A stretch of 64,000 bases of DNA from Deltaproteobacteria bacterium (GTDB taxonomy: Bacteria > Desulfobacterota > Binatia > UTPRO1), in contig JADLHM010000059.1 in NCBI GenBank assembly GCA_020848745.1, forward strand, positions 1 to 64,000. Reading direction: 5' to 3'. The notes beneath the pieces were generated by a model. The model had not been told where the DNA came from, searched no databases, and worked only from the letters and a program-made list of their open reading frames with translations. Numbering within the stretch: position 1 is the first letter of the stretch; every line of letters starts with the position of its first letter. This document shows positions 33,307 through 64,000 of the stretch, in pieces. Both the position numbers and the translations under genes were made by a program.

Positions 33307-34754
33307 CGTCGACGCCGCGCATCCTGATGGCGGCGTCCGAGATGACGCCGTTCGCCGCGACCGGCGGACTCGGCGACGTACTCGCCGCGCTGCCGCCCGC
33401 GCTCGCCGCGCTCGGCGCGCGGGTCCACGTCGTCCTGCCGGCGTATCGCACGGCGACGATCGCCGGCGCCGACACGTCGACCTATGCCAGCCTCCTGGTG
33501 CCGCACCCCGACGGCGTGCGCGAGATCGGCCTCCGCACGCTCCGCCACCGCGATGTTGCCGTCTCCTTCGTCGTCGCCGACGACCATTTCGCGCGTGACG
33601 GCCTCTACGGCGACGCCCACGGCGACTACGGCGACAACGCGGCGCGCTTTGCGTTCTACGCGCACGCCGTGGCCGCCCTCGCGGCGCGGCTCGACCCGCC
33701 GCCCGACGTCGTGCACTGCCACGACTGGCAGGCCGGGCTCGTCCCCGCCCTCCTGCGCACCGCGGATGAGCCGCGGCTCGCCGGGCTGCCGACCGTCTTC
33801 ACCATCCACAACCTCGGGTACCAGGGGATCTTCGGCGCCGAGGTGTGGCCGACCCTCGGCCTCGATCGCCGCTTCTTCGATACGGCGCATCTCGAGTTCC
33901 ACGGTTTCGTCAATTTCCTGAAGGCGGGCCTCGTCTTCGCCGATCGCCTCACGACCGTGAGCCCGCGCTACGCGCAGGAGATCCGGACTCCCGAACACGG
34001 TCACGGGCTCGACGGAGTGCTGCGCGAGCGCCGCGGCGTCCTGCGCGGCATCCTGAACGGCATCGACACGACCCGCTGGGATCCCGCGCACGATTCCTTC
34101 CTGGCGGCGGCCTACGACGCGGACGATCTCGCGGGCAAGGCCGAATGCAAGGCGCGCCTGCAGCGCGATTTCGACCTGCCGATCCGCGCCCGCGTGCCGC
34201 TCATCGGCATGGTCACCCGCCTCGCCGAGCAGAAGGGGCTCGACATCCTCGCCGCCGCCCTGCCCGTCCTCCTCGCCGAGGATCTCCAGATCATCGTGCT
34301 CGGGCGCGGCGACGAGCGCTACGAGCGCTGGCTCGCCGACGCCGGTCGGCGCAACCCGACGCGCCTCGCCGTGCGCCTGGCGTTCGACGAAGGGCTCTCG
34401 CATCACGTGGAGGCCGGCGCCGACGCCTTCCTCATGCCCTCCCGCTACGAGCCTTGCGGCCTGAACCAGATGTACAGCCTGCGATACGGCACGGTGCCCA
34501 TCGTGCGCGCGACCGGCGGCCTCGACGACACGATCGACGACGTCGACGCCGCCCCCGAGCGGGGCACCGGCTTCAAGTTCGTCGAGTACTCTCCCGATGC
34601 GCTGATCGGCGCGGTGCGCCGTGCCCTCGCCCGCTATGCCGACGCCGCCGCCTGGCGGCGCATCATGCGCGAAGGCATGCGACGTGATCACTCGTGGCGG
34701 CGGGCCGCCCTCGCCTATCTCGACCTCTACCGCGACGCCATCGCGGGCCGTTGA
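33303..34754 (+). CDS. glgA: Glycogen synthase (ADP-glucose type, GT5)
   Basis: Elongates alpha-1,4-glucan from ADP-glucose. The protein of about 483 residues has the GT5 layout: RILMAASEMTPFAATGGLGDVLAALP at the start, DVVHCHDWQAGLVPALL, FTIHNLGYQG, GILNGIDTTRWDP, MVTRLAEQKGLDIL, and the C-terminal PSRYEPCGLNQMYSLRYG. The N-terminal motif normally reads KTGGL; here it is ATGGL, replacing the substrate-contacting Lys. No ATG, GTG or TTG gives a complete N-terminus: CTG at 33303 overlaps the lon stop as CTGA, while the first ATG (33328) cuts the first strand. The start is therefore uncertain. Confidence 0.88.
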   Translation: MTSTPRILMAASEMTPFAATGGLGDVLAALPPALAALGARVHVVLPAYRTATIAGADTSTYASLLVPHPDGVREIGLRTLRHRDVAVSFVVADDHFARDGLYGDAHGDYGDNAARFAFYAHAVAALAARLDPPPDVVHCHDWQAGLVPALLRTADEPRLAGLPTVFTIHNLGYQGIFGAEVWPTLGLDRRFFDTAHLEFHGFVNFLKAGLVFADRLTTVSPRYAQEIRTPEHGHGLDGVLRERRGVLRGILNGIDTTRWDPAHDSFLAAAYDADDLAGKAECKARLQRDFDLPIRARVPLIGMVTRLAEQKGLDILAAALPVLLAEDLQIIVLGRGDERYERWLADAGRRNPTRLAVRLAFDEGLSHHVEAGADAFLMPSRYEPCGLNQMYSLRYGTVPIVRATGGLDDTIDDVDAAPERGTGFKFVEYSPDALIGAVRRALARYADAAAWRRIMREGMRRDHSWRRAALAYLDLYRDAIAGR

Positions 34755-34775: not shown

Positions 34776-34791
34776 CCCGGAAATTTCTGCC
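34776..34791 (+). promoter_or_regulatory. Shared upstream activator element (orphan gene)
   Basis: Complement reads GGCAGAAATTTCCGGG. It is 14/16 identical to the element at 49271-49286, in the same orientation relative to its sigma-54 promoter and separated from it by the same 41 nt. Likely enhancer for the sigma-54 activator. Confidence 0.6.
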
Positions 34792-34832: not shown

Positions 34833-34848
34833 CGGCACCGGCCTTGCT
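34833..34848 (+). promoter_or_regulatory. Sigma-54 promoter of the orphan gene
   Basis: CGGCACCGGCCTTGCT: GG (34834-34835), 10 nt, GC (34846-34847), close to TGGCAC(G)N4TTGCW. Predicted start near 34859, then GGGAGGA and the GTG at 34876. Confidence 0.75.
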
Positions 34849-34875
34849 TCCGTAGGTCCCTGGGAGGAATCGATC

Positions 34876-35448
34876 GTGCGCATTGGATCAAATCATTCGT
34901 GCTCGTCCGCGACCGAGACCCGTCGTCGCGTCGTCTCACCGCAGACCGACAGCGGCTTCGCCGGCGCCCTCGCGTCCGCAGTGGAAAGCGGCGACGGCGA
35001 GAGCGGCGGCGGCACCGGCCGGAAGCCCGAGCTCTCGGCGGCGACGTATCGCCTCTTCGCGGCCGTCGCGATCGAACGCGGCGACACGGTGCATGCCGAC
35101 CATTTTCGGGCTCGCGCCGCGGACGCGCGCGAAGCGGGGATCCCTCTGCATCCGTCCGGCGTGCTCTCCGACACCGGACGATGGGACTACACCGAAGACG
35201 CCGCCGCGATCCCAGAGACCGGGCACTTCGACACGGCGACAGGGCAAGGCGTCCGGACCTTCATCCCGTACAACACCACGCGCGACCGCAACGCGGAGGC
35301 CCCGAGCGGCGCCGAAGCGCCGCACGATTGCCCGCCGGCGGCCGCGAGGTCGACCGGACTCGCGAGCAGCGGGCTCCGCGGCGCGCAGACGACGCGCGCA
35401 ACCGCCCACCCCGAGCTCGACGCCCTCCTCGCCACGCTCGCGAGCTAG
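34876..35448 (+). CDS. Orphan unknown protein under sigma-54 control
   Basis: 190-residue protein with no family recognised. The N-terminal about 60 residues are Ser/Gly-rich and probably disordered (SGFAGALASAVESGDGESGGG). A helical segment follows (AATYRLFAAVAIERGDTVHADHFRARAADAREAG), then a Thr/Asp/Tyr-rich middle (DTGRWDYTEDAAAIPETGHFDTATGQGV) and a low-complexity tail. No signal peptide or membrane segment; secretion through the flagellar apparatus would need none. Start GTG with GGGAGGA 7-8 nt upstream, right after a near-consensus sigma-54 promoter and the element shared with flgF. This links it to flagella by regulation only. Confidence 0.8.
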   Translation: MRIGSNHSCSSATETRRRVVSPQTDSGFAGALASAVESGDGESGGGTGRKPELSAATYRLFAAVAIERGDTVHADHFRARAADAREAGIPLHPSGVLSDTGRWDYTEDAAAIPETGHFDTATGQGVRTFIPYNTTRDRNAEAPSGAEAPHDCPPAAARSTGLASSGLRGAQTTRATAHPELDALLATLAS

Positions 35449-35470: not shown

Positions 35471-36241
35471 CTAGGAGACGAACGCCCGCTCGATCACGTA
35501 GTGTCCGGCTCCGCCGCTCGAGCCCTCGCGAAAGCCGCGCGCCTCGAGGATGTCCGCCGTGTCGCGCAGCATCGGCGTGCTGCCGCAGATCATCACCCGG
35601 TCGTCGTCGGGAGCGAGCGCCGGCATCCCGAGATCGGCGGCGAGCTGCCCGGTCTCGATGAGGTGCGTGATCCGACCCCGGTGCTCGAACGCCTCGCGGG
35701 TGACCGTCGGGTAGTACCGCAGCTTGGCGCGCACCTCCTCGCCGATCAGCTCGTTTGCCGGGAGCTCCCGGCGAATGTAGTCGGAGTATCCGAGCTCCGA
35801 GACCGTACGGACGCCGTGCACCACGACGACCTCCTCGAAGCGCCCGTACACCTCGGGGTCGCGGATCAGACTCATGAAGGGCGCGAGCCCGGTGCCGGTA
35901 CCGAGCAGATAGAGGCGCCGACCAGGCAAGAGGTTCGTCAGCACGAGCGTACCGGTCGGCTTGCGACTCACGTAGACGGCGTCACCGGGGCGGATGCGCG
36001 CCAGCCGTGAGGTCAGCGGTCCGTTCGGTACCTTGATGCTGTAGAACTCGAGATGGTCCTCGTAGTGCGCGCTCGCCACGCTGTACGCGCGCAGCAGCGG
36101 GCGGCCCTCCACCTCGAGGCCCATCATGAGGAAATGGCCGCTCCGGAACCGGAGGCCGGGGTCGCGGGTGGTCGTGAAGCTGAACAGCCGGTCGTTCCAG
36201 TGATGCACGCTCAGGACGCGTTCCTGACTCAGATGGCTCAT
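35471..36241 (-). CDS. fpr: Ferredoxin/flavodoxin-NADP+ reductase
   Basis: 256-residue FAD enzyme that exchanges electrons between NADPH and ferredoxin or flavodoxin. It has the FAD-binding RAYSVAS, the NADP-binding LLGTGTGLAPFMSLIRD, and MICGSTPML near the end, as in bacterial subclass I/II FprA. The C-terminus ends GHYVIERAFVS, as expected for this group. Divergently transcribed from a LysR regulator, an arrangement known for fprA-finR, where the regulator activates fpr under oxidative stress. Confidence 0.94.
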   Translation of the reverse strand: MSHLSQERVLSVHHWNDRLFSFTTTRDPGLRFRSGHFLMMGLEVEGRPLLRAYSVASAHYEDHLEFYSIKVPNGPLTSRLARIRPGDAVYVSRKPTGTLVLTNLLPGRRLYLLGTGTGLAPFMSLIRDPEVYGRFEEVVVVHGVRTVSELGYSDYIRRELPANELIGEEVRAKLRYYPTVTREAFEHRGRITHLIETGQLAADLGMPALAPDDDRVMICGSTPMLRDTADILEARGFREGSSGGAGHYVIERAFVS

Positions 36242-38451: not shown

Positions 38452-39621
38452 TCAGGCGCGAAGCGCCTGCCCCCCCGCCAGCCCCAGGAAGTCGCCGACC
38501 GGCGGCACCTGCGCCTCCGCCGCCATCGGGATGGGCCCGAGACGCTCGCCGCCCTCGCCGAGCGTGAGATTGGCCCGCGACTCGCGCTTGCGCTTCAGCT
38601 TCTCGAGAAGCGTCGTGCGGTTCAGCTGCAGCAGCCGCGCCGCCTCCTTCTTGTTGCCGCGGCTGATGTCGAGCGCGCGGGCGATGATGCGGTCCTCGAT
38701 CGACTCCATCTCGCGGTAGAAGTCGATGCCGCGACCGTCGAAGTCCCAGGGCGGCGGCGTCCAGCCGCTCGTCGCGCCGTCGCCCGCCATGCGGCCGTGG
38801 AGCTTCGGCGGCAGATGCTCCGGGCGGATGACGCCGTCGGTCGGCCCGAGGACCACGAGCTGCTCGAGCAGGTTCTTGAGCTCGCGCACGTTGCCGGGCC
38901 ACTGGTAGGCCGCGAGCACCTCCATCGCCTCCGGCGAGACCTCGAAGCGTGGCAGACCCTTCGCCGTGTGGAGCTGGTTCAGGAACCAGTCGACGAGGAG
39001 CGGAATGTCCTCGCGCCGCGCGCGCAGCGGCGGCACCTCGATCGGCACGACGCGCAGGCGATAGTAGAGGTCCTCGCGGAACTGTCGGTCCGCGACCGCC
39101 TCCTCGAGGTTCCGGTTCGTCGCCGCGACGACCCGCACGTCGACCTGCTGGGTGCTCACGCCGCCGACCGCCTCGAACTGGCCGTTCTCGAGGACGCGCA
39201 GGAGCTTGACCTGCAGCTTCGTGCTCATGTCGCCGACCTCGTCGAGGAAGATGGTCCCGCCGTCGGCGAGCTTGAAGCGTCCGACCCGCGAAGTCACCGC
39301 GCCCGTGAAGGCGCCGCGCTCGTGGCCGAACATCTCGCTCTCGAGGAGGTCCTCGGGGATCGCGCCGCAGTGCACGGGGACGAGGCGCTGCGCGTGGCGG
39401 CGGCTCTGCGAGTGGATCGCCTGCGCGACGAGCTCCTTGCCGGTCCCACTCTCGCCGGTGATGAGCACGGTCACTCCGGTCGGCGCCACGCGCCGAATCA
39501 CCTCGAAGATCGCCTGCATCCGTGGATGCCTGCCGATGATGCCGGCGAACCCGGTCACCGCGTCGGCTTCGTCTCGCACTTCGTCCTCCGCCACCGTCTG
39601 CTCCCCGTCCCGTGCGTCCAT
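38452..39621 (-). CDS. Sigma-54-dependent activator, no receiver domain
   Basis: 389-residue bacterial enhancer-binding protein. After a short N-terminus (about 35 residues) comes an AAA+ domain with Walker A GESGTGKE, the sigma-54-contacting GAFTGA, Walker B GGTIFLDEVGD and the arginine-finger region. It ends with a Fis-type HTH (MESIEDRIIARALDISRGNKKEAARLLQLNRTT in outline). A receiver or GAF sensor is absent, so activity is probably set by level or by a partner. It ends the flagellar island, and its own promoter is a sigma-54 type (39681-39696). Likely master activator of the flagellar genes, comparable to FleQ/FlrA/FlgR. Confidence 0.92.
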   Translation of the reverse strand: MDARDGEQTVAEDEVRDEADAVTGFAGIIGRHPRMQAIFEVIRRVAPTGVTVLITGESGTGKELVAQAIHSQSRRHAQRLVPVHCGAIPEDLLESEMFGHERGAFTGAVTSRVGRFKLADGGTIFLDEVGDMSTKLQVKLLRVLENGQFEAVGGVSTQQVDVRVVAATNRNLEEAVADRQFREDLYYRLRVVPIEVPPLRARREDIPLLVDWFLNQLHTAKGLPRFEVSPEAMEVLAAYQWPGNVRELKNLLEQLVVLGPTDGVIRPEHLPPKLHGRMAGDGATSGWTPPPWDFDGRGIDFYREMESIEDRIIARALDISRGNKKEAARLLQLNRTTLLEKLKRKRESRANLTLGEGGERLGPIPMAAEAQVPPVGDFLGLAGGQALRA

Positions 39622-43778: not shown

Positions 43779-44648
43779 TCACGTCGTCCCCGCGGACGGC
43801 GCCGCGGCCCCGAGCACGGTCGTCCCCTCACCGAGAAGCGCCGTCGGATCGACGGCTTGCCCGCCACGGCTCGCGGCGAAGTGGAGGTGCGGTCCGCTTG
43901 CCCGGCCGCTCGAGCCCACCGTCGCGACCACCTCGCCGGCGACAACATGTTGACCCGCACGGACGAGCGTTCGTTCCGCATGCGCATAGCTGGTGACCAG
44001 ACCATCCGCATGGCGCACCTCGACCATCCGCCCGGCGCCGCCGCGCCGCCAGCCGCTGAAGACCACCTCGCCGTCGGCCACGGTGCGGATCTCGGTGCCC
44101 CGTGGCGCCGCGACGTCGATCCCGGCGTGGAACTTGGGCTTCCCGGTGAACGGATCGCTCCGCATGCCGAACGGCGAGCTGATCGCGCCCGCCGCCGGCG
44201 CCGCCGCCGCCGTGTTCGGCGCAGCCGCGGCCGCGCGGACGCTCCCCACGGTGGACGCGGTCCGCCCGAGCGTCCGCGCCGCGACCGGATCGGCGCCCGT
44301 CCCGGCCGAAGCCGCCGACCCACCCGCCTGCGCGGTGGTCGTCCCGGGATGCTGCCGCTCGATCTGCGCGACGATCTGCTCCGCGATCCCGAGTCCGCCC
44401 TTCGCCGCCAGACTCCGCGCCACCTCCTGGTCGAACGCGCCGTCGAGCATCTTCCGGTTCGTCGACGCCTCCAGCATCCCCGATTCCGGCACGGTCTTCC
44501 GCATCGCGCTGATCACCTGCGCGAGCAGCACCGCCTCGAACTCCTTCGCCACCGCCTCCGGAGACTTCCCGGAAAGCCGCCGCCGCGTCTCGTCCCCCGG
44601 CGGCGACGTCGGCACGAACACCGCAGCCGCAGAGATCGGATCACCCAT
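43779..44648 (-). CDS. flgJ: FlgJ rod-binding protein fused to an M23 peptidase
   Basis: 289-residue protein. The N-terminal FlgJ domain (SPEAVAKEFEAVLLAQVISAMRKTVPES in outline, MLDGAFDQEVARSLA) caps the growing rod. After an Ala/Gly/Thr linker comes a LytM/M23 endopeptidase domain with metal ligands in KFHAGIDVAAPRGTEI and the HLHFA (HxH) motif intact. In E. coli and Salmonella the C-terminal domain is instead a glucosaminidase. The active-site His and Asp suggest it opens peptide cross-links for the rod. Start ATG 44648 (MGDPIS); ATG 44696 is an alternative in repeat-like sequence. Confidence 0.92.
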   Translation of the reverse strand: MGDPISAAAVFVPTSPPGDETRRRLSGKSPEAVAKEFEAVLLAQVISAMRKTVPESGMLEASTNRKMLDGAFDQEVARSLAAKGGLGIAEQIVAQIERQHPGTTTAQAGGSAASAGTGADPVAARTLGRTASTVGSVRAAAAAPNTAAAAPAAGAISSPFGMRSDPFTGKPKFHAGIDVAAPRGTEIRTVADGEVVFSGWRRGGAGRMVEVRHADGLVTSYAHAERTLVRAGQHVVAGEVVATVGSSGRASGPHLHFAASRGGQAVDPTALLGEGTTVLGAAAPSAGTT

Positions 44649-49270: not shown

Positions 49271-49286
49271 GGCAGAATCTTCCGGG
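49271..49286 (-). promoter_or_regulatory. Shared upstream activator element (flgF)
   Basis: Forward strand GGCAGAATCTTCCGGG, 41 nt upstream of the -24 box; 14/16 identical to the element at 34776-34791 with identical spacing and orientation. Confidence 0.6.
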
Positions 49287-63824: not shown

Positions 63825-64000
63825 GCAACGAAGGGCCTCGGCTTTCGCGCACCGCGCAGGTCGCCGAGGAAGAATCCGCCCCGGGTCTCGGCAGAAACTG
63901 CCGCGGGCCGCCGGGTTCGCCCCGTCGGCGGAAGTACGCTCCGCCCCCGGCGCTCCGATGCGAGCTATCGCCGTCGCCGAGGATGCAGCTAGTTGTTCGG
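63825..64000. other. Upstream region of fliK to window edge
   Basis: Apart from the palindrome at 63889-63903, no gene or RNA is recognised. The genes expected before fliK in many genomes (fliI, fliJ) are not seen. Confidence 0.5.
63889..63903. promoter_or_regulatory. Candidate activator palindrome upstream of fliK
   Basis: CGGCAG-AAA-CTGCCG, a perfect 6-bp inverted repeat 65 nt upstream of the fliK -24 box. GGCAGAAACTGCCG matches the flgF/orphan element at most positions, consistent with the same activator. Confidence 0.45.

Follow-up and report, generated by a model that had tools for sequence, protein, structure and literature searches.

The window analysed here is a 64,000-nucleotide stretch (positions 1 to 64,000 of contig JADLHM010000059.1) of a genome from the order UTPRO1, which has been placed in Binatota (PMC8262859). 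Within it, gene X is flanked by glgA and by the ferredoxin-NADP reductase gene fpr; as fpr is convergent, gene X looks like a single-gene unit (Table 1). The nearest gene of the flagellar island starts at 38452, about 3 kb away, so that the coordinates agree with an earlier note on this DNA, made without database searches, which had put the gene between glgA and fpr and outside the island. Two congeners have orthologues at the corresponding locus (80% and 67% identity), with dN/dS of about 0.29 and 0.24. Gene X is thus a real, conserved gene under purifying selection; its rate of evolution exceeds that of the neighbouring GlgA and Fpr and falls between the rates of FlgD and FliK.

Table 1. Features at the gene X locus and at the promoters that share its upstream element (window positions unless marked otherwise)
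Feature	Position	Strand	Remarks
glgA	33327-34754		flanks gene X
Element at X, CGGAAATTTCTGCC	34778-34791	+	enhancer-like, palindrome-like; 54 bp above the -24 box
Sigma-54 promoter of X, CGGCACCGGCCTTGCT	34833-34848	+	CGGCAC-CGGCC-TTGCT (-24/-12); one mismatch to TGGCACN5TTGCW
Ribosome-binding site of X, GGGAGGA	34862-34868	+	kept in congeners
Gene X (protein-coding)	34876-35448	+	GTG start; 190 aa; outside known families
fpr	35471-36241		convergent with gene X
Sigma-54 activator without receiver domain	38452-39621	-	AAA+ and Fis HTH domains; position FleQ-like; sigma-54 box of its own at 39696-39681, no element
flgJ	43779-44648		rod-binding domain fused to M23 peptidase domain
Element at flgF, CGGAAGATTCTGCC	49271-49284	-	upstream of flgF sigma-54 promoter 49229-49214
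Element at fliK, CGGCAGTTTCTGCC	63890-63903	-	upstream of fliK-flgD-flgE sigma-54 promoter 63824-63809
Element at flgB	73667 (contig)		outside the window

Profile searches of X against Pfam and NCBIfam at the curated cut-off matched no family, FliX, FlgM, FlgN, and FlgJ included, in line with the earlier description of a 190-residue protein of no recognised family, and a PDB search returned no credible match. Conservation is concentrated in the N-terminus (MRI...GFA.AL.S) and in a core (PLHPSGV...GRWDYT...IPETG) beyond which lies a C-terminal helix. A helical hairpin is predicted at about residues 55–86; the AlphaFold2 model is poor (mean pLDDT 46.7), with moderate confidence only for the helices around 55–86. 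The protein is rich in Ala, Ser, Thr, Gly, and Pro and has neither a signal peptide nor a strongly hydrophobic stretch.

The near-consensus sigma-54 promoter and the ribosome-binding site reported earlier are both present. The box has the GG-N10-GC spacing and its position is conserved in six genomes; its first base is C instead of T in all six, which may make it weaker. When the sigma-54 consensus was searched alone (≤ 2 mismatches), the window gave 16 matches against 13 expected, no more than chance would provide. In a window this rich in G+C, a sigma-54 match by itself lacks significance; the promoter question is decided by the upstream element.

The strict form of this element, CGGMARWTTCTGCC, has four matches in the whole 4.88-Mb genome, before X, flgF, fliK, and flgB only, and all four stand above sigma-54 boxes. 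Distances from the start of the 13-mer to the start of the box are 54 bp at both X and flgF, 78 bp at fliK, and 102 bp at flgB, so the element that had previously been noticed at X and flgF is indeed the same one, equally placed. Simulated 120-kb sequences (n = 60) yielded no element and box pair, compared with four observed, and the combination is far from chance. The three distances rise in steps of 24 bp and are nearly constant in congeners, a regularity that may reflect helical phasing.

The same four sites are the only strict matches genome-wide in congener G001, with matching spacings save for 77 instead of 78 bp at fliK. Congener G002 has strict matches only at flgF and fliK, with near-matches at X and flgB; on its contig C35 that layout, 77 bp at fliK included, recurs for X, flgF, and fliK, and at flgB, which is on a different contig, the element has one mismatch. 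Across the six genomes of the family, all of which have a gene at the X position with the same promoter architecture, the distance between element and box at X is 54, 54, 54, 54, 64, and 56 bp. Genome G005 of a sister genus has GGCAGAGTTTGCC at X and GGCAAAGTTTGCC at flgF, similar changes having occurred at both.

When a looser element and box pattern was applied to 17 genomes with flagellar genes, 10 gave real matches and the controls gave none. Many of these precede flgF; some stand before other genes, among them one of PII type in G031 and one for a histidine kinase in G003, so the loose core GGCA-N5-TGCC is not specific to flagella. The strict form is flagellum-specific in this genus. The histidine-kinase gene (L077:1593-2930, G003:C99, in a sister genus) combines the loose element with a perfect sigma-54 box, and is possibly a further member of the regulon or part of another NtrC-type regulon. 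On contig C59 beyond the window, a 607-aa gene that looks Maf-like by eye and a 505-aa gene are separated by a pair of divergent sigma-54 boxes, both perfect, at 83381 (-) and 83563 (+). A single imperfect element, reading GGAAAAATGTGCC on one of the strands, is common to both boxes, and this arrangement is conserved in G001.

Genes for RpoN and for an enhancer-binding protein linked to the flagellum are present in the genome. Directly upstream of flgB lie genes for a histidine kinase and for an NtrC-type regulator (73712-75061 of the contig) in which a receiver domain is joined to AAA+ and Fis domains, and FlgM and an FlgN-like protein are encoded in the flagellar island. Taken together, the conserved promoter anatomy and a strict element common only to X, flgF, fliK, and flgB make membership of X in the sigma-54 rod and hook regulon of the flagellum well supported computationally, and the tie to flagellar control proposed in the earlier note holds on the same grounds, the anatomy recurring in six genomes. 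By analogy with the FlgSR, FleSR, and FlrBC systems (PMC7064773), the receiver-AAA+-Fis regulator should bind the element, and the enhancer-binding protein of X would most likely be this FlgR-type regulator beside flgB. The likeness to those regulons, in which sigma-54 drives the rod and hook genes of polar flagellates, lies in the box and upstream element common to X, flgB, flgF, and fliK and in the two-component enhancer-binding pair of this cluster. X differs as an unlinked single gene of no known family whose dependence on the activator is predicted.

Beyond the family, neither 148 genomes of the class nor a sample of 395 from the phylum yielded a credible homologue of X, so its description as lineage-specific stands. 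Weak matches in G032, G061/G030, and G113/G053/G093 were rejected as short, with marginal E-values and some with internal stops. FlgE/F/G-type genes and RpoN are encoded in all six carriers. The former are absent from 40 of 58 sampled genomes, and none of those 40 carries X; homologues are therefore not found mainly in non-flagellated relatives, a pattern that would have spoken against a flagellar role. This distribution is consistent with flagellar function and represents one lineage, not six independent cases, since all carriers belong to one family.

Whole-protein searches of the two sister genera recovered no X orthologue. At the position of X, each of these genera has an element-bearing, sigma-54-driven gene, preceded by lon or glgA and followed by the FleQ-like regulator, with products of 270–315 aa that are 47–59% identical to the first of them. 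When X was compared with these longer proteins using hhalign, only residues 1–39 aligned (P = 0.007), and shuffled N-termini equalled the observed score 0–15 times in 300. A core motif, PL[HN]PSGV...YT...IP, is also shared, with a shuffle p of about 0.03–0.04 in the best pairs only. Given that motif value and an alignment confined to residues 1–39, homology between the X core and the longer core was rejected. The sister-genus genes are treated here as putative positional homologues with a diverged core, of which only the N-terminus is securely shared.

We consider X probably a rod/hook-stage accessory protein, fast-evolving and lineage-specific, assigned to this stage by its co-regulation. No domain or fold of X points to a flagellar role, and its placement as a hook-stage protein is a reasonable inference from co-regulation only. 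Within the flagellar regulon, X would belong to the sigma-54 'rod and hook' class as a unit of one gene. Completion of the basal export platform would activate the flagellum-linked two-component system, that is, the kinase and NtrC-type regulator encoded upstream of flgB. The regulator would then bind the CGG(C/A)A..TTCTGCC element and bring sigma-54 polymerase into play at flgB, flgF, fliK, and X together, so that X would be made alongside the rod, hook, and hook-length proteins as an accessory factor of that assembly stage. The binding regulator, the timing, and the action of X on the flagellum are what we infer from a gene, a conserved promoter, and an exclusively shared strict element that are observed directly. 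Tentatively, X may be a hitherto undescribed part of the rod/hook stage or one of its export substrates, belonging to one Binatota-type family with a core barely recognisable between genera.

Whether X is itself exported bears on the nearest alternative, a rod/hook-type export substrate (an exported accessory, cap, or length-control-like protein) docking via F28xxxL32, which we regard as rather doubtful. An export-gate recognition motif has been described (PMC8983047), and FxxxL is kept in the six homologues, starting at residue 25–28, as it is in the same cell's FlgB, FlgE, FlgG, FlgJ, FliE, and FliK. X is co-regulated with export substrates, and its composition and freedom from a signal peptide or strongly hydrophobic stretch suit this role. 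Against it, FxxxPhi at positions 20–50 also occurs in 9 of 43 non-flagellar proteins, and a profile made from early export substrates of the same cell ranked X only 27th on the contig (shuffle p = 0.14, not significant). With the motif no better than background, the earlier suggestion that the N-terminus is compatible with flagellar export went unsupported. X resembles the early substrates FliK, FlgD, and FliE in being Ala/Ser/Thr-rich and fast evolving, in its FxxxL near the N-terminus, and in sharing the element of the fliK operon, but has no sequence homology to them, and its export motif does not rise above background.

That X acts in the cytoplasm, as a chaperone or, in the manner of Caulobacter FliX, as a partner of the sigma-54 activator in regulation or in an assembly checkpoint, seems improbable. 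A small, soluble protein with a predicted hairpin, a promoter of the rod/hook operon class, and a neighbourhood shared with the FleQ-like activator in six genomes would fit such a function, but X matches no Pfam family, FliX, FlgN, and FlgM included, and the island already encodes FlgM and an FlgN-like protein. It is equally unlikely that X is not a flagellar gene at all and, having been captured by a promoter of flagellar type, serves a separate role during motility, for example in the envelope or at the surface. Its location outside the island among metabolic genes, its want of a flagellar domain, and a core that differs between genera would agree with capture, whereas promoter and position are kept in all six family members and the strict element is common only to rod/hook operons.

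As a probable rod/hook-stage accessory protein, X illustrates how, where homology fails, a promoter signature can tie an unknown, fast-evolving gene to one precise stage in the building of the flagellum. The four promoters form a short, testable regulon for an uncultured lineage, and X is a specific candidate for a flagellar part confined to that lineage.

A comparable promoter occurs in genus g15 (G017, G024, and G044), where an element and sigma-54 box drive a gene with a C-terminal SLT lytic transglycosylase domain (L082:1603-2349; L074, reverse strand, 1585-2331; L072:1429-2169). Its product resembles that of X in an N-terminal FxxxL stretch and differs in having an enzyme domain, which X lacks; the gene lies on a different contig from flgF and is a candidate flagellar transglycosylase.
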